DNA of 64,000 nt, taken from Leucobacter triazinivorans (GTDB lineage Bacteria > Actinomycetota > Actinomycetes > Actinomycetales > Microbacteriaceae). The first letter of the stretch is position 1. Every line of letters begins with the position of its first letter. The stretch covers positions 2,852,001 through 2,916,000 of the forward strand of contig NZ_CP035806.1 in NCBI RefSeq assembly GCF_004208635.1, in the 5' to 3' direction. The notes beneath the pieces are model-generated. The model worked only from the letters and a program-made list of their open reading frames with translations, was not told where the DNA came from and searched no databases. The position numbers and the translations under genes were made by a program. Positions 4,686 through 15,734 of the stretch are shown piece by piece.

Positions 4686-5084
4686 TCACTCCCCCATCGG
4701 TCTGCCCTGGGGCAGTTCTCGAGCCCCCACGGGCGGAAACGGCTTGCCGCCGTTGTACTGGCGCTCTAGCCGCTCGACTTCCTTCATAGCGGCCCCGCTG
4801 AGGAACTGCGAGAGGCTGCGCACGCCTTCGTAGGGGATGGTGTGCATGATCGCGCCACGGATGCGGTCAGTGTCCTCCTGCTCCTGGTAGAACGACACCT
4901 TGGGCGGGTACTTGCTGCGCTTCTTCGGTGCGGCCGCCTGCGGCTCTGTGGCGCTCTCTGCAGGCGTGGCCGGTGCGACAGGCGCGGGAGCGGCTGCGGG
5001 AGGCTCCTGCGGCGTCTCAGCGGCCGGTGCGATGGGGTTCCGCCCGCTGAGGGTGGAGCGTTTGCGTTCGGGTCGGGCGCTCAT
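4686..5084 (-). CDS. ParB-like small centromere-binding partner
   Basis: A 132-residue protein whose ATG overlaps the ParA stop (ATGA). The N-terminal 75 residues are a Pro/Ala-rich, basic linker (AAETPQEPPAAAPAPVAP). The C-terminal part (KYPPKVSFYQEQEDTDRIRG, then an alpha-helical stretch ending in LSGAAMKEVERLE) has the strand-helix-helix pattern of ribbon-helix-helix partners used with small ParA proteins in actinobacterial plasmids. Such proteins bind centromere repeats and often repress their own operon. It is one candidate for binding the AGTACT sites nearby. The fold is inferred by pattern. Confidence 0.65.
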   Translation of the reverse strand: MSARPERKRSTLSGRNPIAPAAETPQEPPAAAPAPVAPATPAESATEPQAAAPKKRSKYPPKVSFYQEQEDTDRIRGAIMHTIPYEGVRSLSQFLSGAAMKEVERLERQYNGGKPFPPVGARELPQGRPMGE

Positions 5085-5878
5085 GCGCGTACTCCTTCGA
5101 GGGTGGTCAGGTGGCCGCTGTAGAGGCCGCTGAGGGCGGTTGCTTCGGCGCTCCCCCACTCGTCGAGGCCCTTGGATGCTTCGACGGCATCCGCGATCAC
5201 GACGCGCTTGGGAACCGGCGGGGTGAGCACGCGCAGTCCGCGTGCCTCGGCCGCCTCGGTGAGGTCGTCGAGCCAGGCGCGGCCGCTGACGGTGTTCTCC
5301 TCGTGCTGGTTGATGAGGATGCCGGCGACGTCGAGCTGCGCGTTGTAGTGCTCGCGCACGAGCGCGATCGTGTCGAGGAGCTGCGTCAGGCCGTTGGCGC
5401 TCCACAGCTTCGAGTGCGTCACGACCACTACCCCGTCCGCGGCCGTCAGGCCGTTGCTGGTGAGCTGGTCAAGGCTCGGCGCGCAGTCGATGAGGATCAG
5501 GTCATAGTCGTCTGCAACCTCGCGCAGCGCGGCGCGTAGGCGGCTCTCTCGGCCCGCTCCGGCGATCACGAGTTCATCGCGCACACTGCCGAGCTCGACG
5601 CCCGACGTCGGCACGAGGTCGAGGCCGGGCCACAGTCCCGGCACGATGACGTCGCGCAGCGTCTCGTCGGCGTGCTTGCTCAGCGCATCGGCTAGGCCGG
5701 GCTGATCTTCCTCGACGGTTTCGGCTGCGATCGACGTCGTGAGGTTTCCCTGCGGGTCGAGGTCGACGGCGAGCACGCTACGCCCAGCCAGCACCGCGGC
5801 GCGGGCCAGGTGGAATGTCGTCGTGCTCTTGCCGACGCCGCCCTTCTGATTGCAGAGGGCGAGGATTCGAGCGGTCAC
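5081..5878 (-). CDS. parA: ParA-family partition ATPase
   Basis: Partition ATPase of Walker type, 265 residues. The deviant Walker A KGGVGKST is at residues 12-19, the A' motif (VLAVDLDPQGN) near 40-50 and Walker B (LILIDCAP) near 135. GTG 5878 is chosen because AAAGG lies eight bases upstream; an in-frame ATG at 5893 would place that site inside the gene. It lacks a DNA-binding N-terminal extension, so repression is probably done by the ParB-like partner. An AGTACT palindrome sits 29 bases before the start. Its presence, with Rep and SSB, marks the region as plasmid-derived. Confidence 0.92.
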   Translation of the reverse strand: MTARILALCNQKGGVGKSTTTFHLARAAVLAGRSVLAVDLDPQGNLTTSIAAETVEEDQPGLADALSKHADETLRDVIVPGLWPGLDLVPTSGVELGSVRDELVIAGAGRESRLRAALREVADDYDLILIDCAPSLDQLTSNGLTAADGVVVVTHSKLWSANGLTQLLDTIALVREHYNAQLDVAGILINQHEENTVSGRAWLDDLTEAAEARGLRVLTPPVPKRVVIADAVEASKGLDEWGSAEATALSGLYSGHLTTLEGVRA

Positions 5879-5906
5879 GGTGTCACCTTTCATGTGTAAC
5901 GGCAAT

Positions 5907-5912
5907 AGTACT
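5907..5912. promoter_or_regulatory. AGTACT operator-like site before parA
   Basis: Core AGTACT within CAATAGTACTGTTA, 29 bases upstream of the parA start. This is one of nine copies of the same near-palindrome between 5.9 and 9.6 kb. Confidence 0.65.
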
Positions 5913-5957
5913 GTTAGGGGTGCGCCCCACGGTGGAGGCGCACCCCTGAGTGCGGGA

Positions 5958-6344
5958 TCAGAACGGGGTGTCGTCGCCCTGGTCGGCGGTCGAGGGCTTG
6001 CCGACCACGCGGACGCTCTGCCCGCGCAGGCTCACCGCGATTTCGTCGGCTCGGACCTCGTGCTGCAAGCGGCTCCCCTGGTCGCCCTTGTACTCGGTGA
6101 CGCGGTAGCGGCCGGAGAACGTGACGCGGATGTTCCCCGACTCCTCGGCCGCCTCGACGAGGTTCTGCGCCTGGTTGCCGCTCACGGCGACGTCGTAGGC
6201 GACGGTGGGGCCGTCGGTGTAGCTGCCGTCCTCCTGGCGGATGCGATCGCTGACGAGGACGCGGGCGTAGGTGTACGGGCCGTTGTCCCCTTCGCGGAGG
6301 GTGGGCGTTGCGGCGAGGTTGCCGGTGCGGGTGATGTAGCTCAT
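5958..6344 (-). CDS. ssb: Single-stranded DNA-binding protein
   Basis: A 128-residue OB-fold SSB with the usual start (MSYITRTGNLAATPTLRE) and an acidic C-terminal tip ending DDTPF, a variant of the DDDIPF tail that recruits replication proteins. The linker between fold and tip is very short, as in plasmid-borne SSBs compared with chromosomal ones of 150-200 residues. It binds ssDNA during plasmid replication or transfer. It stands alone after parA with its own AGTACT site 37 bases before the start. Confidence 0.9.
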   Translation of the reverse strand: MSYITRTGNLAATPTLREGDNGPYTYARVLVSDRIRQEDGSYTDGPTVAYDVAVSGNQAQNLVEAAEESGNIRVTFSGRYRVTEYKGDQGSRLQHEVRADEIAVSLRGQSVRVVGKPSTADQGDDTPF

Positions 6345-6380
6345 GGTGTGCTCCTTCGGTTTCGTCCCGGTAGTGGGAAC

Positions 6381-6386
6381 AGTACT
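6381..6386. promoter_or_regulatory. AGTACT operator-like site before ssb
   Basis: Core AGTACT within GGGAACAGTACTATTAGC, 37 bases upstream of the ssb start codon. The GGGAACAGTACT half matches the twin sites at 7729 and 7765. Confidence 0.65.
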
Positions 6387-6416
6387 ATTAGCGGGAATGG
6401 GGTTACAAGGGGATAG

Positions 6417-6650
6417 CTAAGGGCGCTCGACCTCCAATCGCCGGCCATCCATCTGCGCCGGGTACAGCACGTGCTCGACGTCGCTGGTCGGGTGGGGGTT
6501 CACGAGACGCACGCCCTGAACACTCCCCGCTCCGATGTAGCCGAGACGCTGCGCGACGACTCGCGCCGGGCGGTAGGGCCGGCCATCCCAGCTCAGGATG
6601 CGGTCGCCCGCCTGGAGGTCGGCCAGCTTGGTGATGATGAGGTTCTGCAT
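6417..6650 (-). CDS. Small hypothetical protein
   Basis: A 77-residue protein (MQNLIITKLADLQAGDRILS at the N-terminus) with a compact beta-strand-rich pattern resembling a small SH3-like or Hint-like barrel, but I do not recognise a family. No membrane segment or signal peptide. It sits between ssb and another unknown gene, all leftward, and has its own AGTACT palindrome 47 bases upstream, the longest perfect copy in the set. Role in plasmid maintenance is inferred from location only. Confidence 0.55.
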   Translation of the reverse strand: MQNLIITKLADLQAGDRILSWDGRPYRPARVVAQRLGYIGAGSVQGVRLVNPHPTSDVEHVLYPAQMDGRRLEVERP

Positions 6651-6696
6651 GTCGTGTCCTGGTTCCGTATCGTCTCTAGTTCCGTGTAACTCTAAT

Positions 6697-6702
6697 AGTA
6701 CT
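6697..6702. promoter_or_regulatory. AGTACT site inside a 28-bp perfect palindrome
   Basis: The core sits at the centre of a perfect 28-bp palindrome at 6686-6713, whose inner part reads CTAATAGTACTATTAG. It is the best-formed copy of the repeated site. Confidence 0.7.
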
Positions 6703-6719
6703 ATTAGAGTTACTGATGG

Positions 6720-7136
6720 TCAAGCCTTTCGGGCTTCTCCGGCCAGCAGCTCTCCGACCGTTTCGGCCAGCAGCCACAGGCGATCGGCTGCCGCGCGATC
6801 CTCGGCGGTGTAGTCGCGATAGGCGGCCTGGTGCTCGAAGTCCTCACGGCCGCGCCGGGCCATGCTCAGCAGCATGTCGATTCCCTCGCACAGCTCGCGG
6901 TCGACTGGAACAACCCGCCCGCCGCCGTCGACGACGAGGCTCAGCGGTTCGCCCATCCCGTGCACGTGCATGGCGTAGCCGTCGCCCTCGCGCTCGACGT
7001 AGGCCGTCAGGATCGTTCGCGACTCCTCGTCGTCGAAGTCCACGCGCCCGTAGCTGTCGGGGTCGTCCCCGAGCGGCCAGAGCTGCGGCTCCAAGCGGGT
7101 GCCACGGTCATACGGGGTCAGGTTGCGGTCGGTCAT
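6720..7136 (-). CDS. Hypothetical protein
   Basis: A 138-residue acidic protein. ATG 7136 is chosen because AGGAGG lies five bases before it; the open frame extends to 7247 but that part overlaps the AGTACT site and lacks coding character. The C-terminal segment YTAEDRAAADRLWLLAETV matches a motif in the protein at 4207-4683, suggesting a shared helical domain in this element. No membrane segments. Family not recognised; expression is probably controlled by the AGTACT site 22 bases upstream. Confidence 0.6.
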   Translation of the reverse strand: MTDRNLTPYDRGTRLEPQLWPLGDDPDSYGRVDFDDEESRTILTAYVEREGDGYAMHVHGMGEPLSLVVDGGGRVVPVDRELCEGIDMLLSMARRGREDFEHQAAYRDYTAEDRAAADRLWLLAETVGELLAGEARKA

Positions 7137-7157
7137 GATTCCTCCTGTAACGGGATT

Positions 7158-7163
7158 AGTACT
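7158..7163. promoter_or_regulatory. AGTACT operator-like site
   Basis: TAACGGGATTAGTACTATTT, 22 bases upstream of the gene at 6720-7136. On the coding strand it runs straight into the ribosome-binding site. Confidence 0.65.
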
Positions 7164-7179
7164 ATTTGGGGTAGTGGGG

Positions 7180-7428
7180 TCAGGCTGCGAAGTGAGCGGC
7201 GACGCGCTCGATCTGGTCGGGTCGGAGGTCGCACCAGTGATCGTCATCGTCGACCACGACGACGGGGGCCACGGTGTAGCCCAGTTCCTCGGTCACGTAC
7301 TCGCGCGCTTCGGGGTGCTCGGTGATGTTGACCTCGACGTACGGGATGCCCTTGCTGTCCAGCATCATCTTCGTCATCCGGCACTTCCCACACTGGGGAC
7401 CGGTCATGTAGACGGTTAGCGCTTCCAT
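7180..7428 (-). CDS. NrdH-like glutaredoxin/redoxin
   Basis: A small thiol-disulfide redoxin of 82 residues with a thioredoxin fold. The redox motif CGKC is at residues 12-15, preceded by VYMTGPQ; the cis-Pro region reads VAPVVVVDDDD near 51-61. NrdH proteins reduce class Ib ribonucleotide reductase; no nrd genes are in the window, so the partner is unknown. ATG 7428 is chosen for the AGGA site seven bases upstream. It is the only gene in this block without an AGTACT site close to its start. Confidence 0.82.
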   Translation of the reverse strand: MEALTVYMTGPQCGKCRMTKMMLDSKGIPYVEVNITEHPEAREYVTEELGYTVAPVVVVDDDDHWCDLRPDQIERVAAHFAA

Positions 7429-7452
7429 TTCGTGATCCTCCCACCCCACTCG

Positions 7453-7611
7453 TTTTTTTGCCGTGAAGGCGACTTGTCGCCGCTAGGGAGAGCCGGCCGG
7501 AGTGCCAGTGACCGTGGAATACCGGACTGAGCGAAGCGAGGGAGGATATGCCGCGAAAGCACTGGCGCGCAGGTTGGCCGACCGTATGCTGCCGAAGGCT
7601 TCACGGCAAAA
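7453..7611. repeat. Structured element A with 13-bp terminal inverted repeats
   Basis: The element begins TTTTGCCGTGAAG (7456-7468) and ends with the reverse complement CTTCACGGCAAAA (7599-7611). Inside are a short hairpin GGCGACTTGTCGCC, the block GCCGCTAGGGAG, and GGTTGGCCGACCGTATGCTG just before the right end. A second copy lies at 9613-9809 with the same ends and same internal blocks but a different middle. No gene is supported in 7429-7777; the gap holds this element and two AGTACT sites. Confidence 0.7.
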
Positions 7612-7728
7612 GAACGGGTCGATAGGCCCTGACAGTCGGCCGGCTCCGTCCGGCCGTCCGTTAGCCGACGCCGGCTCCGTCCGGCGTCGGCCGGCGTGGT
7701 CGTGAGCTGCGGCACCTGGCCGGGGAAC

Positions 7729-7734
7729 AGTACT
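7729..7734. promoter_or_regulatory. AGTACT site in an 18-bp perfect palindrome
   Basis: GGGAACAGTACTGTTCCC at 7723-7740 is a perfect palindrome. It is 36 bp from the next copy and lies between structured element A and the gene at 7778, so it does not directly precede a start codon. Confidence 0.7.
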
Positions 7735-7764
7735 GTTCCCGCCCCACGCAACAGCGACGGGAAC

Positions 7765-7770
7765 AGTACT
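7765..7770. promoter_or_regulatory. AGTACT operator-like site (second of a pair)
   Basis: GGGAACAGTACTAATAGGG, just after the stop of the leftward gene at 7778-8083 and 36 bp from the perfect palindrome at 7723-7740. A leftward transcript from this pair would first read element A. Confidence 0.65.
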
Positions 7771-7777
7771 AATAGGG

Positions 7778-8083
7778 TCACTCGCATTGCTGGGTGGCTG
7801 CGATCCGGGCGGCGACGTTGCACACGTCGTCCGGGGTCACTTCGTCGAGGAGGATCGTTCGGGTTCCGCCGTCGAGGTCGATCCACCACACCGGGCGCAC
7901 GGTGTCGGCGTCGATCCCGGCGCGGTGCGCGGGAAGCTCTGACGCCGGGTCCACGGGGCCGAAATAGAGCTGAGGAGCCCAGCTATCGGCCCCCATGTCG
8001 GTGTAGAGCGTCGTGGGAAAGGGGAGGAGCTGCGCCACGTCATCCAAGAGGGCGGCAACGTCGCTGGTCGTGAGGGTCGTCAT
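7778..8083 (-). CDS. Small hypothetical protein
   Basis: A 101-residue acidic protein (MTTLTTSDVAALLDDVAQLL) with alternating strand-helix character and no membrane segment. I do not recognise it. It belongs to the run of small leftward genes each preceded by an AGTACT site (here 21 bases before the ATG, with the TTAGGAG ribosome-binding site directly joined to the operator). Location on the plasmid-like element suggests an accessory maintenance or anti-defence role, unproven. Confidence 0.58.
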   Translation of the reverse strand: MTTLTTSDVAALLDDVAQLLPFPTTLYTDMGADSWAPQLYFGPVDPASELPAHRAGIDADTVRPVWWIDLDGGTRTILLDEVTPDDVCNVAARIAATQQCE

Positions 8084-8103
8084 GGGGTTCTCCTAACGGG
8101 ATT

Positions 8104-8109
8104 AGTACT
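8104..8109. promoter_or_regulatory. AGTACT operator-like site
   Basis: CCTAACGGGATTAGTACTAT, 21 bases before the start at 8083. The flanking 20 bases are identical to the copy at 8656. Confidence 0.68.
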
Positions 8110-8116
8110 ATTCGGG

Positions 8117-8635
8117 TCAGTCGTTCGGGGCGGCGAGGTCGTAGCCGCCGAAGGGGGAGCGGCCGCCGACGTGGCGGCCGCCGTACGGGCCGCGTCGACT
8201 GATGACGGGTGCGCCGGGACGCTGCCACTCGGCGGGGTAGTTCTCTGCGCACCACTTGGCCGCCGCGGCGCGCGCCTTCTTCTCGTCGGCGGTGCTGAGG
8301 TTCGTCGGCAGGATCGGCAGGGCTCTCCATCCGGGCATCGCGTGGTCGTGCTCTGCGAGGTCGCACCGGGTGTCGGCGTTGAGCATGTGCAGCTCGTGGG
8401 CCTCGTCGCTAGCGGCGACGTCCTGCCGACCGAAGTACGCGCGGTGCCACATGTGCGAGCGCATCAGGCATCCGAAGTTCCCGTGTTCGCCGGTCCACCG
8501 CTCGAACGCGGCCGCGAGGTCGTCGGGGTGGTGGTAGTCGGTGACGTACCGCAGGGGCACGCCTTCCCAGGGGGTCGCGGCCACGGCCTCGCGCTCGAAC
8601 TCGGCCATATCGAACAGGGTCGGCTCTCCGTGCAT
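8117..8635 (-). CDS. Hypothetical protein
   Basis: A 172-residue protein with several His, Trp and Cys residues (FGCLMRSHMWHRAYFGR near 53-69; KWCAENYPAEWQRPG near 127-141) and a Gly/Arg-rich tail (RRGPYGGRHVGGRSPFGG). The pattern resembles hypothetical proteins of actinobacterial phages and plasmids that I cannot name with confidence. It sits between an unknown and the ArdC-like gene; AGTACT site 21 bases upstream. No membrane segments. Confidence 0.6.
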   Translation of the reverse strand: MHGEPTLFDMAEFEREAVAATPWEGVPLRYVTDYHHPDDLAAAFERWTGEHGNFGCLMRSHMWHRAYFGRQDVAASDEAHELHMLNADTRCDLAEHDHAMPGWRALPILPTNLSTADEKKARAAAAKWCAENYPAEWQRPGAPVISRRGPYGGRHVGGRSPFGGYDLAAPND

Positions 8636-8655
8636 GACGTTCTCCTAACGGGATT

Positions 8656-8661
8656 AGTACT
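8656..8661. promoter_or_regulatory. AGTACT operator-like site
   Basis: CCTAACGGGATTAGTACTAT again, 21 bases before the start at 8635. Confidence 0.68.
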
Positions 8662-8668
8662 ATTCGGG

Positions 8669-9556
8669 TTACGCGGCGACGGGCTCGGGGGCGGGCTCGG
8701 TGATCGCGTCGGCCAGGGCGTGCGCGGTGCGCAGCACGTTTGCCGCGGTGGCCTTGATCGTCTCGGCCTCGCACTTGCTCCACCCGGCGACGTAGCCGAC
8801 GCTGTAGGCGCTCGTGTCGAGTCCGAGAATCCCGGCGACGATGTAGGCGACGCTCTCGGCCTCGGTTTCCTTGATCCCGCGGTGCTCGACGTACTCGGCG
8901 TGATCTTCCTCGGCGTGCAGGATGACGTGGGCGGCCTCGTGAAGGGCGGTCTTGGCTGCCTGAGCGGGGGAGAGGTCCGCGTCGATCACGACGCGCTGCG
9001 TGCCGTCGGTGGTGGTGTACCCGTTCGCGCCTCCGGCGATCTGCTCGCGCTCGACGGTCCAGCCCTTGCCGGTGAGGTAGTCGGCCACGGCGTCGAAGAT
9101 GCCCGCGGGGTCGTCTCCGGTGAGCTGTCGCGCAATGTCGGCCGGGTCGCCCGCTTCCTCGTCGATGAGGTCGGTCTGTCCCATGTCGAACACGGACACC
9201 GGGAAGAATCGCACGCGGCGCTGTTCCTCCTCCTCGCCGGTCTGCTCGTTCTCGACCGTCTCGCGCACGTCGCGGCCGCCGAAGATGCGGATTCCGCGCT
9301 CACCCTTGCGCACCTGGCGGTTGAGCTTCTGCCACGTCCGGTAACCGGCGACGTGCGACGCCTCGGGGCACTGGGCGAAGATCAGCAGCAGGTTCCCCAG
9401 GCTGTAGCGGTGGAACGACTGCGCGAACGTCAGGAACCGCGCCCACGTCTCGGACTCGCGCAGCGCCTCGACCTGTTCCGCGATCGTCGCTTGCAGGGCC
9501 TCGGCCTCGGCGCGACGCTCCTCGGGGCTCTTGGTGTTCTTGACCGTGCGTGCCAT
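8669..9556 (-). CDS. ArdC-like antirestriction protein with zinc metallopeptidase domain
   Basis: A 295-residue two-domain protein. The N-terminal ArdC-type ssDNA-binding domain has the typical FHRYSLGNLLLIFAQCPEAS stretch (48-67) and GYRTWQKLNRQVRKGERGIR (71-90). The C-terminal half carries HEAAH at 206-210 and a downstream ETEAE with Glu near 230, the zinc-ligand set of M78-like peptidases. ArdC proteins protect incoming plasmid DNA from host restriction. ATG 9556 follows GGAGG by eight bases. AGTACT site is 27 bases upstream. This fits an element that transfers between hosts. Confidence 0.85.
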   Translation of the reverse strand: MARTVKNTKSPEERRAEAEALQATIAEQVEALRESETWARFLTFAQSFHRYSLGNLLLIFAQCPEASHVAGYRTWQKLNRQVRKGERGIRIFGGRDVRETVENEQTGEEEEQRRVRFFPVSVFDMGQTDLIDEEAGDPADIARQLTGDDPAGIFDAVADYLTGKGWTVEREQIAGGANGYTTTDGTQRVVIDADLSPAQAAKTALHEAAHVILHAEEDHAEYVEHRGIKETEAESVAYIVAGILGLDTSAYSVGYVAGWSKCEAETIKATAANVLRTAHALADAITEPAPEPVAA

Positions 9557-9582
9557 GTTCGGAACCTCCACCTAACGGGATT

Positions 9583-9588
9583 AGTACT
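9583..9588. promoter_or_regulatory. AGTACT operator-like site before the ArdC-like gene
   Basis: CCTAACGGGATTAGTACTAT, 27 bases before the ardC-like start; the rightmost of the nine copies. Confidence 0.68.
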
Positions 9589-9612
9589 ATTTGCGTCTGT
9601 CTCACCCCCACG

Positions 9613-9809
9613 TTTTTTTGCCGTGAAGGCGGTTTACCGCCGCTAGGGAGGACGGCCGGAGTGCAACCCGGAGGGCGGTGGGGGAGAGAGTTTCGGCGCG
9701 ATGTGAGGGAGCGCAGCGACCGCGTGCCGAAAGTCTCGGAGGAGCCGGCGGCGCAGCCGCTTGCATGGAGGTTGGCCGACCGTATGCTGCCGAAGGCTTC
9801 ACGGCAAAA
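9613..9809. repeat. Structured element B with 13-bp terminal inverted repeats
   Basis: Second copy of the element seen at 7453-7611. Ends are TTTTGCCGTGAAG (9616-9628) and CTTCACGGCAAAA (9797-9809). The blocks GCCGCTAGGGAG, GGCCGGAGTGC and GGTTGGCCGACCGTATGCTG are shared. The middle is longer and includes GCCGGCGGCGCAGCCG-type stem sequence. The shared similarity continues past the right end as AGGCCCTGACAG. The gap 9557-9893 holds this element and the AGTACT site and no supported gene. Confidence 0.7.
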
Positions 9810-9893
9810 CAACGGGCCGAAGGCCCTGACAGCGCCGGCATCGCCGGCTCGACCAGCGAGCCCGTGGGCTCGCCTCCGCGCAGCGGATCGTCG

Positions 9894-12145: not shown

Positions 12146-12412
12146 CTATGCGGCTTTCGTCGGGGCCTCCTCCGGCAGGTCGAGCTGGTTCGCGCGGTCC
12201 CGCGCGGGAGGGTCGACGAGCGGCATGCCGCCGTTCTCGTTGACGAGCTTGGTGATGAGCGCATCCAGGTAGTACGACATGGTGACGCCGGATGCCTCGG
12301 CAGCTTCGCGCACGTCGTTGCGCGCGGTAGGGGAAACCCGGCCCTGTAGCAGGACCGTGGGCGCGTCGTTCGGGCGTCGCGCGCGTCGGCCGTAGTCGCT
12401 CATACGAGCCAT
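12146..12412 (-). CDS. Ribbon-helix-helix DNA-binding protein
   Basis: A small basic protein of 88 residues from ATG 12412 (ATG 12403 is also possible; neither has a clear ribosome-binding site). Residues about 18-55 (PTVLLQGRVSPTARNDVREA, then SGVTMSYYLDALI) show the strand, helix, turn, helix order of the CopG/Arc superfamily, where the strand contacts DNA. It lies upstream of rep in the same direction, so a copy-number or operon repressor is likely. It is the best local candidate for the AGTACT-binding factor. Confidence 0.65.
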   Translation of the reverse strand: MARMSDYGRRARRPNDAPTVLLQGRVSPTARNDVREAAEASGVTMSYYLDALITKLVNENGGMPLVDPPARDRANQLDLPEEAPTKAA

Positions 12413-12973: not shown

Positions 12974-13354
12974 ATGGAACTGAACGGTGCTCAGATTGAA
13001 GCGCTCGCTGATCTGCTCGTTGACTCGCATGACGAGTTGCTGAGCAGCTTGGTCAAGATGCGCAAGAAGCATGGTCTAAGCCAAGAACAGGTTGCTGAGC
13101 GTATGGGCATTAGCCAGCCTGCGGTTGCATCATTCGAACGTTACGACGCCAATCCAACCTTGGCTACCATTCGACGGTATGCGTTGGCAGTTCAGGCTTC
13201 TATCGAGCATCGTGTAGTCGACCAGTGCTGCATCTTGGTTGCTCGGGAAGCCACTGGAGGTGCGAGCCGTTCCATGAGTTGGAATCCGCGACAGTCGGTG
13301 GAATGGGAATGGGCGGCTGGCGAAACCCATGTGAAGGCGTTTGTGAATGCCTGA
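12974..13354 (+). CDS. HigA-like XRE-family antitoxin
   Basis: A 126-residue protein. The helix-turn-helix lies at about 27-75 (MRKKHGLSQEQVAERMGISQ with PAVASFERYDANPTLATIRR). The C-terminal tail after residue 80 carries polar and Trp-rich sequence (SMSWNPRQSVEWEWAAGE), the place where TAC antitoxins hold a chaperone-addiction region. It binds and neutralises the toxin and probably represses the operon. It follows the toxin by 10 bases and overlaps the chaperone gene by eight. Confidence 0.82.
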   Translation: MELNGAQIEALADLLVDSHDELLSSLVKMRKKHGLSQEQVAERMGISQPAVASFERYDANPTLATIRRYALAVQASIEHRVVDQCCILVAREATGGASRSMSWNPRQSVEWEWAAGETHVKAFVNA

Positions 13355-14211: not shown

Positions 14212-15537
14212 TTACAAGCCGAGCCCTCCGCGACCTTGGGCCATTCTTGGGCCATTTCCGTGGCCCGTACTGTAGCCGGCGGTTCCGAACGGATCGTTGA
14301 ACGGAACGCCGAACGGGTCGGCGAGGTTCGGGCTCGCAGACGAGCGCCGCGACTTCTTCGCGCCGCTCGTCTTGCTGCTCTTCTTGGTGTTCTTCTTCGG
14401 CTTCGGCTTGTCCGGCTCGAAGAGCCCGTCGAGCACCGACCCGGCACGCCGCGCGACACCCTCGCGTGCGCGTGAGTAGCGCTCGGTGACCTGCAGGCTG
14501 GAGTGTCCGAGTACGGCTTGCACGTCGGGTGCAGAGGCTCCTGCGTCGAAGAGGATCGTGGCGAAGGTGTGGCGGAGGTCGTGCACCCGCAGCTCGGGGC
14601 GGTGAAGCTCGGTCTTGATCTTCTCCCAATCGACGGCGCGGCGGAAGTTCCGCGCAGTGAGCCTGCCGCCATTCGGCCCCGCCCACAGCAGATCATCCCG
14701 TTCCTTGCCCTTGATGGCCTCGATGACGGACGGACGGAGCTGCTTCGTGATCGGTGCTTCCCGCTCCTTGTGGCTCTTGGGGCTCTGCTCGATCAGTTCG
14801 CCGTTCTTGCCGGGGGAGAAGCTGCGGCTGATACGGAGGATGTTCTGCTCCAGCTCGGCGTCGCGCACCCGCTGTGCCGTCGCCTCGCCAGCGCGCATTC
14901 CGGTGAAGACGAGCGCTGCCGCGTAACGCCGGTACACGCCCGCGGGGATGAGTTCGAGCAGCTTTCTGATCTGCTGCACGGTGAGCGCCCGCGAGGTTGG
15001 GGAAGTGGAGGTGTCCTGGCTCGGGCGCTTCACCTCGCGCGCCGGGTTGTAATCGATGATCCTCGCCCGGCGTGCGCCGTCGAGCAAGCGGCTGAGCACC
15101 GCGAGCGAATCGACCTTGATTGACGGCGACCCAGCCCATGACACCATCGCCGACTCGATGAGCGGCGAGGTGATCTCTTCGAGCTTCTTGTCGCCGAGCG
15201 TCGGCTGCACCCGCTTGCGCCATGACACGTCATAGCCGCGCGCTGTTCCGACCCGCACCGAGGCGGCGATGGCGGGCCAGTAACGTTCATGCCACTGCGT
15301 GAGCGTCATTCCCGCGTTCGGGTTGCGGCCCGACACCTCTTTCGCCAGCTCGCGCTTCGCTTCCGCGAGGGTGAGGAACATGCGAGAGCGATGCTGCTTG
15401 TTCCCGGCGAGGTCGGTCACCGTCACGCGAATTTGATACCGCCCTCGATCCGTCCGCCACCGGATGCCCTCGGGCATCGGGCGACCCGTGTTCGGATCGA
15501 CCCGAGCTGGGGAGGTATTCGACGGACGCCCGGCCAT
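14212..15537 (-). CDS. Tyrosine-type site-specific integrase
   Basis: A 441-residue integrase. The arm-binding domain (RYQIRVTVTDLAGNKQHRSR near 33-52) is followed by a SAM-like core-binding domain (about 78-170) and a catalytic domain with Arg215 (FTGMRAGE), HDLRHTFATIL at 319-329, LGHSS near 343-347 and nucleophile Tyr354. A 50-residue basic tail (KPKPKKNTKKSSKTSGAKKS) is unusual and may be a DNA-binding extension. It overlaps the excisionase stop (TAATG). Its position 147 bases from the 14047-14065 repeat makes it the recombinase of the second island. Confidence 0.93.
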   Translation of the reverse strand: MAGRPSNTSPARVDPNTGRPMPEGIRWRTDRGRYQIRVTVTDLAGNKQHRSRMFLTLAEAKRELAKEVSGRNPNAGMTLTQWHERYWPAIAASVRVGTARGYDVSWRKRVQPTLGDKKLEEITSPLIESAMVSWAGSPSIKVDSLAVLSRLLDGARRARIIDYNPAREVKRPSQDTSTSPTSRALTVQQIRKLLELIPAGVYRRYAAALVFTGMRAGEATAQRVRDAELEQNILRISRSFSPGKNGELIEQSPKSHKEREAPITKQLRPSVIEAIKGKERDDLLWAGPNGGRLTARNFRRAVDWEKIKTELHRPELRVHDLRHTFATILFDAGASAPDVQAVLGHSSLQVTERYSRAREGVARRAGSVLDGLFEPDKPKPKKNTKKSSKTSGAKKSRRSSASPNLADPFGVPFNDPFGTAGYSTGHGNGPRMAQGRGGLGL

Positions 15538-15734
15538 TAGCGTCTCGTTCCGCCGACTTCGAGGAACTCCTCGATGGTGTCTGCGCGCCAGAGCTTGTGC
15601 TTGCCGACCTCCGCGTCAGGTTCAGGGATCAGCCCGTCGCGGCGCAGCTTGTCGAACGTCGGCAACGGCACTCGGCAGCGAGCAGCGGGCTCGGCGCGCG
15701 TGAGGTAGTCCGTCTGCACTGTTGCCTCGGTCAT
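15537..15734 (-). CDS. Excisionase / AlpA-like DNA-binding protein
   Basis: A 65-residue winged-helix protein of the excisionase class (LTRAEPAARCRVPLPTFDKL, then GLIPEPDAEVGKHKLWRADTIEEFL). The motif starts with a recognition helix and ends with the W-R-x-D-x-I-E-E-F-L pattern of AlpA/Xis proteins. It directs the integrase toward excision and can regulate the island. It shares one base with the integrase start, so both are made from one transcript. Confidence 0.85.
   Translation of the reverse strand: MTEATVQTDYLTRAEPAARCRVPLPTFDKLRRDGLIPEPDAEVGKHKLWRADTIEEFLEVGGTRR

Follow-up and report, generated by a model that had tools for sequence, protein, structure and literature searches.

The window analyzed here, a stretch of 64,000 nucleotides (nt) of Leucobacter triazinivorans DNA (NZ_CP035806.1, positions 2,852,001 to 2,916,000), is part of a 3.48-Mb single-contig chromosome. 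A plasmid-like block spanning 4.2 to 12 kb of this window is the backbone of a plasmid-derived element within an actinobacterial chromosome, and nine copies of a palindrome centered on AGTACT lie among its leftward genes. Judging from the form, position and distribution of these copies, we consider it likely that they are paired 9-base-pair (bp) boxes for the element's own ParB, a protein of the pCXC100 type, and that cooperative binding of this protein represses the backbone genes. The genes and sites are, in order of position (aa, amino acids):

4686..5084, minus strand: ParB-like ribbon-helix-helix (RHH) centromere-binding protein (CB_ParB_C; Pfam E 1.9e-18, PDB 3no7 E 2.2e-6), beta-strand KVSFYQ; the proposed binder
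5081..5893, minus strand: ParA Walker ATPase; the GTG at 5878 is the start in homologues
5897..5922, minus strand: putative ParB-box pair before parA, core 5907; -10-like TACTAT, no TTG -35
5958..6344, minus strand: single-stranded DNA-binding protein (SSB)
6371..6396, minus strand: putative ParB-box pair before ssb, core 6381; overlaps the promoter -10
6379..6408, minus strand: ssb promoter-like TTGTAA-18-TACTGT
6417..6650, minus strand: 77-aa protein, function unassigned; relatives in several of the plasmids
6687..6712, minus strand: putative ParB-box pair before gene 6417-6650, core 6697; perfect palindrome, top matrix score 44.8
6695..6723, minus strand: promoter-like TTGACC-17-TACTAT, its -10 inside the palindrome
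6720..7136, minus strand: 138-aa protein, function unassigned
7148..7173, minus strand: putative ParB-box pair before gene 6720-7136, core 7158; TACTAA, no -10
7180..7428, minus strand: glutaredoxin
7719..7744, minus strand: putative ParB-box pair, tandem member, core 7729; outer arms weak (score 7.0)
7755..7780, minus strand: second putative ParB-box pair of the tandem, core 7765, 36 bp from the first
7778..8083, minus strand: 101-aa protein, function unassigned
8094..8119, minus strand: putative ParB-box pair before gene 7778-8083, core 8104; no -10
8117..8635, minus strand: DUF6349 protein
8646..8671, minus strand: putative ParB-box pair before the DUF6349 gene 8117-8635, core 8656; no -10
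8669..9556, minus strand: ArdC-like antirestriction protein (ArdcN + M78)
9573..9598, minus strand: putative ParB-box pair before ardC, core 9583; no -10

Nine Palindromes in the Block

The nine cores listed in a preliminary description of this DNA (5907, 6381, 6697, 7158, 7729, 7765, 8104, 8656, and 9583) are all present and together span 5907-9588. Its two perfect palindromes, of 28 bp (6686-6713) and 18 bp (7723-7740), are likewise correct, and the sequence that it called nearly fixed in four copies is a 19-mer, TAACGGGATTAGTACTATT, identical at 7148, 8094, 8646, and 9573. Its claim of a site before seven of eight leftward genes stands for seven, at 20-46 nt, with the correction that the eighth, the glutaredoxin gene, has no close site. 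From core to start codon the distances are 28 nt for parA (counted to the GTG of the homologues), 36 for ssb, 46 for the 6417 gene, 21 for the 6720 gene, 20 each for the 7778 and 8117 genes, and 26 for ardC. The pair 7729/7765 lies ~300-340 nt upstream of the glutaredoxin gene with a conserved structured element between, while parB and gene 4207 come after parA and have no site of their own.

These copies are confined almost entirely to the block. Allowing up to two mismatches, ATTAGTACTATT gave 15 strand-matches in the window, all of them at eight of the nine cores (7729 was missed), against a mean of 0.14 in shuffled sequence. Rarity elsewhere, on which the preliminary description had made its reading depend, is borne out: nine of the 10 matches to WWNAGTACTNWW in the whole chromosome lie inside the block (the reversed control pattern matched four times), and AWYAGTACTRWT matched nine times in the genome (control, once). 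None of 53 other genomes of the genus that were searched has more than one AWYAGTACTRWT site. A chromosome-wide regulon was rejected on these two counts. A 26-bp matrix trained on 164 half-sites taken from 21 other loci ranked the nine sites above all other window positions, with scores of 44.8 to 25.9 for eight of them and 7.0 for 7729; the next window position scored -1.6, and the best score on the window read backwards was 5.4.

Two further features accompany the sites. In some places two sites stand 32-36 bp apart, their facing arms making up an inverted repeat, often just after ardC or the preceding gene; such doubles were seen at 7729/7765 in the window and, among the related loci (L numbers), at L132 6261/6295, L134 7466/7498, L136 4063/4097, L137 6570/6604, and L139 5823/5857. 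A GC-rich inverted repeat, AGGGGTGCGCC...GGCGCACCCCT, stands at 5916-5947 directly before the parA box, with similar repeats in L134, L135, L137, L139, and L145, and is possibly an ssb terminator or part of parS.

Sites in Related Plasmids

Searches by tblastn and blastn showed relatives of the block in many plasmids, and 26 stretches of 25 plasmid records were compared. Counted over whole records, WWNAGTACTNWW occurs 14 times in M. proteolyticum, eight times in Xylanimonas, seven in Cryobacterium, six each in Leifsonia and Rathayibacter, five in Miniimonas, four in Paenarthrobacter YJN-D, twice in Corynebacterium pAG1, and once in Tessaracoccus. Glutamicibacter pR912B has one match and many more sites with GAT arms; pTZC1, Microbacterium J1-1, and Herbiconiux have none in their whole records. 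The control pattern matched none of the 13 records of this first set. In a second set, which again included M. proteolyticum, six of 13 records matched WWNAGTACTNWW, and the control matched once in each of two; Cutibacterium modestum had no match, yet carries two AGTACT sites with other arms. Genome contigs contain the 15-mer in at least 118 stretches, from which four loci of three Microbacterium genomes were used (L031, L038, L046, L073). Searching the plasmids for pCXC100 returned one distant record only.

The sites keep to gene starts. In six annotated plasmids of the 25 records, 34 of 44 sites lie at most 60 bp upstream of the start of a coding sequence, vs. 5-9% of positions, and only two lie inside a coding sequence, though 63-87% of positions do. 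A choice of 20 loci gave 107 sites, of which the 94 unique ones were used for gene spacing; the promoter counts use 91 unique sites from 19 of these loci (L192 omitted). Sites too close to a stretch end were skipped, and L138, which is near-identical to L134, was omitted.

Hosts of site-bearing plasmids span several families (Corynebacterium pAG1, Cutibacterium modestum, Glutamicibacter, Xylanimonas, Miniimonas), and two plasmids of Microbacteriaceae hosts, L151 and L156, carry variant units; the AGTACT box therefore follows the plasmid, not the host. Four phage records matched the block, in the ardC or glutaredoxin part only; the 19-mer had no match in viral contigs.

A 9-bp Unit

AGTACT is best read as the junction of two inverted 9-bp units, TCTAATAGT and ACTATTAGA, because relatives space their units by 9 bp and repeated half-sites peak at that lag. 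L152 and L153 carry a four-unit palindrome in which TCTAACAGT-TCTAATAGT meets ACTATTAGA-ACTGTTAGA; two AGTACT cores lie 9 bp apart in L149 and L132 and 18 bp apart in L155 and L190; and parA of pAG1 and pR912B is preceded by ACTATTAGC-ACTATTGGA. Direct repeats (L149, L132, L206) and four-unit palindromes (L152, L153) alike hold the 9-bp register. Among same-strand RTTAG pairs lag 9 stands out: a selection of eight divergent plasmids has nine pairs at this lag, against a background of 0.15 per lag, and a selection of 18 AGTACT-type loci has 14, against 0.25. The next highest lags have two and six pairs, respectively, the six being at lag 15. The unit itself is ACTRTTAGA-like. Good units number exactly two at each of the nine window sites; before parA, where the window has the pair at 5897-5922, relatives have two to three. 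Separately, a triple direct repeat of 9 bp, AATAGTACT, stands at L206 5147-5173 (G656:C6), and the frame downstream of it has a Fic-like motif, HPFREGNGR, recognized by eye.

Overlap With Promoter-Like Sequences

In 25 of the 91 unique sites of the family set, a TTG stands exactly 17 or 18 bp upstream of an in-palindrome TACTRT; in the opposite direction this occurs once. Every one of the 25 belongs to the 65 sites whose sixth -10 base is T; the 26 other sites contribute none (Fisher p 5e-5, nominal). TTG hexamers with at least four of six matches to TTGACA number 14 and eight at offsets 17 and 18, and at most six at any other. Two of the nine window sites show the overlap, that of ssb (TTGTAA-18-TACTGT) and that of the 6417 gene (TTGACC-17-TACTAT), the latter being the only sigma-70-like match of the promoter search; the four identical copies (7158, 8104, 8656, 9583) have TACTAA and no TTG. 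Of the two possibilities raised by the preliminary description, a single repeated operator is well supported, and a combined promoter-operator is supported for this subset. Since the box overlaps the -10 there, repression by occlusion is likely.

ParB as the Candidate Binding Protein

The match to CB_ParB_C falls in the C-terminal half of the 132-aa protein encoded at 4686-5084 and is its sole Pfam match; 3no7 is the structure of pCXC100 ParB, and KVSFYQ is the predicted DNA-contact strand by its position in RHH proteins. Two draws of genomes (G numbers) place this family beside the sites. In the family draw, four of 398 genomes have at least three AWYAGTACTRWT sites within 5 kb (the window's own, G405, G403, and G172), and all four have a CB_ParB_C gene ~1.0-1.4 kb from the cluster, the family occurring in 33 of the 398 overall. 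In the order draw, where CB_ParB_C occurs in 22 of 396 genomes, site places were listed for every genome with at least two sites, except the window's own; within 5 kb such places occur in G629 (three sites) and G702 (two), with CB_ParB_C ~1.9 and 2.7 kb away, and in G656 as an overlapping 9-bp array without it.

Presence and absence of 14 window proteins were then compared over 45 loci. A site is present in 28, and 25 of these match ParB; the three others are L046 (first 8 kb of the contig only), L143 (ParB lies in L145 of the same record), and L206. Each of ssb, ardC, rep, and glutaredoxin is absent from more of the 28 site-bearing stretches than ParB is. L142 and L144 share ardC (86-87%), glutaredoxin, and rep with the window and have no ParB and no site. 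Box form also varies, if loosely, with the ParB beta-strand: KVSFYQ goes with two-unit AGTACT boxes, KVAYYQ (L155, L190) with cores 18 bp apart, KTSFYQ (L152, L153) with four-unit palindromes, and KMGYYA (L156), KATFYA (L157), KISYYQ (L154), KVTFYQ (L147), and KVSFEQ (L151) with other box letters.

Several observations weigh against the proposed reading. Of the loci compared, 13 of the 17 without AGTACT sites match it: L141, L150, L151, L154, L156, L157, L193, L195, L207, L208, L209, L211, and L212, among which L150 and L195 are one record (as are L194 and L193). Inspection by eye showed variant units in L151, L154, L156, L157, L194, L208, and L212; the same inspection of L141, L195, L209, and L211 gave none that convinced, and that of L207 a single palindrome. 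Many of these site-free loci are more distant, have variant units, or have no intact parA; L209 matches ParA 99-267 only, while L207, L211, and L195 have no ParA match, and loss of parA may explain loss of the sites. The strand-box link is loose because KVSFYQ occurs without AGTACT in L150/L195, L209, and L212, and AGTACT cores occur with KVGFYQ (L203) and KTAYYA (L192). Co-occurrence cannot tell ParA from ParB, the two being linked, and L203 matches ParA weakly (28%, part). The triple repeat of L206 (G656) sits in a genome without a CB_ParB_C hit. The plasmid records compared are a part, without Rhodococcus or Streptomyces, of the 145 that ParB matched at E up to 1. Related plasmids recur in the data (L188 resembles L133, and G405 the Leifsonia plasmid L133), so p-values are nominal. 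Finally, a TTG at -35 is missing from seven of the nine window sites and a -10 from four.

The site-free loci that match ParB also lend something to the view that a different protein binds the palindrome, either one that the element encodes (for instance RHH 12146-12412 or the helix-turn-helix (HTH) protein 12974-13354) or a host regulator, ParB being merely linked. We regard this as unlikely. The RHH protein is encoded close to the block, and L046, the closest relative, which has eight sites, carries a 92% relative of it. Relatives of the RHH protein nonetheless occur in L142 and L144, where the motif is absent, and Tessaracoccus (one site) is the only one of the remaining site-bearing records compared to have one. 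The HTH protein has no match in the 45 loci, and a host regulator fits poorly with a box that tracks the plasmid. The RHH protein was set aside as binder on the motif counts in three of the 22 plasmids with a homologue (L142, 0; L144, 0; Tessaracoccus, 1). Of the two binder candidates first put forward, then, the RHH protein misfits, and the ParB-like protein lies beside every multi-site cluster of both draws except the one odd 9-bp array. AGTACT sites thus go with ParB 4686-5084 and not with RHH 12146-12412, and we predict that ParB binds them.

It is quite improbable that a conserved promoter (-10 region) alone is conserved and the palindrome incidental. The TTG-N17/18-TACTRT arrangement is sharply positioned in its subset, but the 26 sites without T at the sixth -10 position include four of the nine in the window, both half-sites show preferences out to position 13, and neither long palindromes nor 9-bp arrays belong to a promoter. 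A simple promoter or RNA element was set aside on the promoter counts of the 91 family sites. Action at the RNA level near the ribosome-binding site, like that of the start-associated sequences that cluster K phages reportedly carry, would suit the many sites that stand 16-46 nt ahead of a start codon and beside a Shine-Dalgarno-like sequence, but is scarcely credible: a palindrome that overlaps the -10 would be partly untranscribed, the start nearest to the tandem pair 7729/7765 is ~300 nt away, and phasing by 9 bp, whichever way the units point, fits a dimer that binds DNA. A phage-type start-associated sequence was rejected, the three viral matches L129-L131 being AT-rich contigs with one palindrome match each and the four phage records matching only in the ardC or glutaredoxin part.

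Structured Element and Chromosomal Setting

The glutaredoxin gene and ardC are each preceded by a copy of a ~200-nt structured element (minus strand, 7445-7640 and 9605-9850, respectively). The element has a blastn match in at least 24 of the 45 loci, including L141, L142, L144, and L156, which have no AGTACT boxes. For an alignment of 19 chosen copies RNAalifold predicts 19 pairs, five of which show double changes in one or more copies; three of the five belong to the closing helix, GCCGTGAAG...CTTCACGGC and a U/A extension of it, and two to a hairpin. The covariation term is small (-0.96 of -15.07 kcal/mol). Single-sequence folding of the two copies is not unusual (z -1.4 and -0.9). Rfam gave no family at its cut-off in the window and, at E up to 1, one weak match, outside the element. 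The element is a candidate for a new RNA class.

The 680-aa protein encoded beyond ardC has relatives on the same plasmids as the block and gave no match in a Pfam search. A tyrosine integrase gene (14212-15537) adjoins the block, and a small frame that looks excisionase-like by eye stands with it at 14212-15734; no tRNA gene was found in the window. The block appears to be a plasmid backbone integrated in the chromosome.

A Model for ParB-Dependent Control

In the model that we favor, each AGTACT palindrome would be an inverted pair of 9-bp boxes for dimers of ParB 4686-5084, two dimers would bind each pair cooperatively, and transcription would be blocked. At ssb and the 6417 gene, bound ParB would cover the promoter -10; at copies without a -10 it may act as a roadblock between genes, stopping read-through polymerase, or an unrecognized promoter may be used. 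With parAB under its own box, the operon would repress itself, and the level of ParB would therefore set the expression of ssb, ardC, and the small genes, which would be jointly high without ParB, as after transfer, and low once ParB has accumulated. More tentatively, it is possible that the promoter-proximal two-unit boxes over ~4 kb together form a dispersed centromere, whose partition complex silences ssb, ardC, parAB, and their neighbors, so that expression is the default in a ParB-free cell and the system works as an establishment switch.

If the model is right, partition is tied to the expression of antirestriction and single-stranded DNA-binding genes, which are needed when a plasmid enters a new cell. 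The findings suggest that one small protein both assists in distributing the plasmid and controls the plasmid's housekeeping genes in many actinobacteria, and they would define by sequence a regulon for plasmids of Microbacterium, Leifsonia, Cryobacterium, Glutamicibacter, Corynebacterium, Cutibacterium, and others. They also offer naturally occurring RHH ParB variants whose boxes differ, a series useful for recognition studies. No earlier description of such a regulon was found among the best-ranked results of the literature searched.

Comparison With Known Systems

We file the par genes with the pCXC100 type and liken the working of the regulon to that of Omega. The window shares with the pCXC100 ParA-ParB-parS system (type Ib) a homologous ParB RHH domain, a Walker-type ParA directly upstream of the small ParB, and 9-bp-unit repeats upstream of the par operon. 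The pCXC100 parS, studied in 2011, reportedly has a 9-nt unit and a centromere core of four contiguous units; such a core is absent from the nine window sites and present in L152 and L153. In pCXC100 the repeats lie upstream of the par operon and the centromere has direct repeats only (PMC5016525), whereas here two-unit inverted boxes are spread before seven genes.

Omega of pSM19035 is likewise an RHH ParB; it binds 7-bp units, with six parS sites overlapping the copS, delta, and omega promoter regions (PMC9499535). There, two units, direct or inverted, are bound with high affinity, and four contiguous units are needed for full activation of the ParA ATPase (PMC9499535). If the analogy holds, the window sites would be operators rather than full centromeres, unless they act together. 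In pSM19035 the repeat arrays overlap promoters of several plasmid genes; in the window seven genes have a site, and the overlap seen at ssb and the 6417 gene is with promoter-like sequences. Omega has WATCACW units in arrays of 7-10; in the window the phasing is 9 bp and each site has two ACTATTAGA-like units. The genes with sites here also differ from those of pSM19035, being ssb, ardC, the DUF6349 gene, parA, and small uncharacterized genes.

KorB is an HTH CTPase ParB; the window ParB, at 132 aa, matches only the RHH family CB_ParB_C in Pfam, and no HTH ParB/KorB family. KorB/KorA of RK2 nevertheless resembles the present proposal in that a partition-type protein is also a plasmid-wide repressor (PMC11790492). 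What is new beside these systems is the wide spread of the paired 9-bp boxes.

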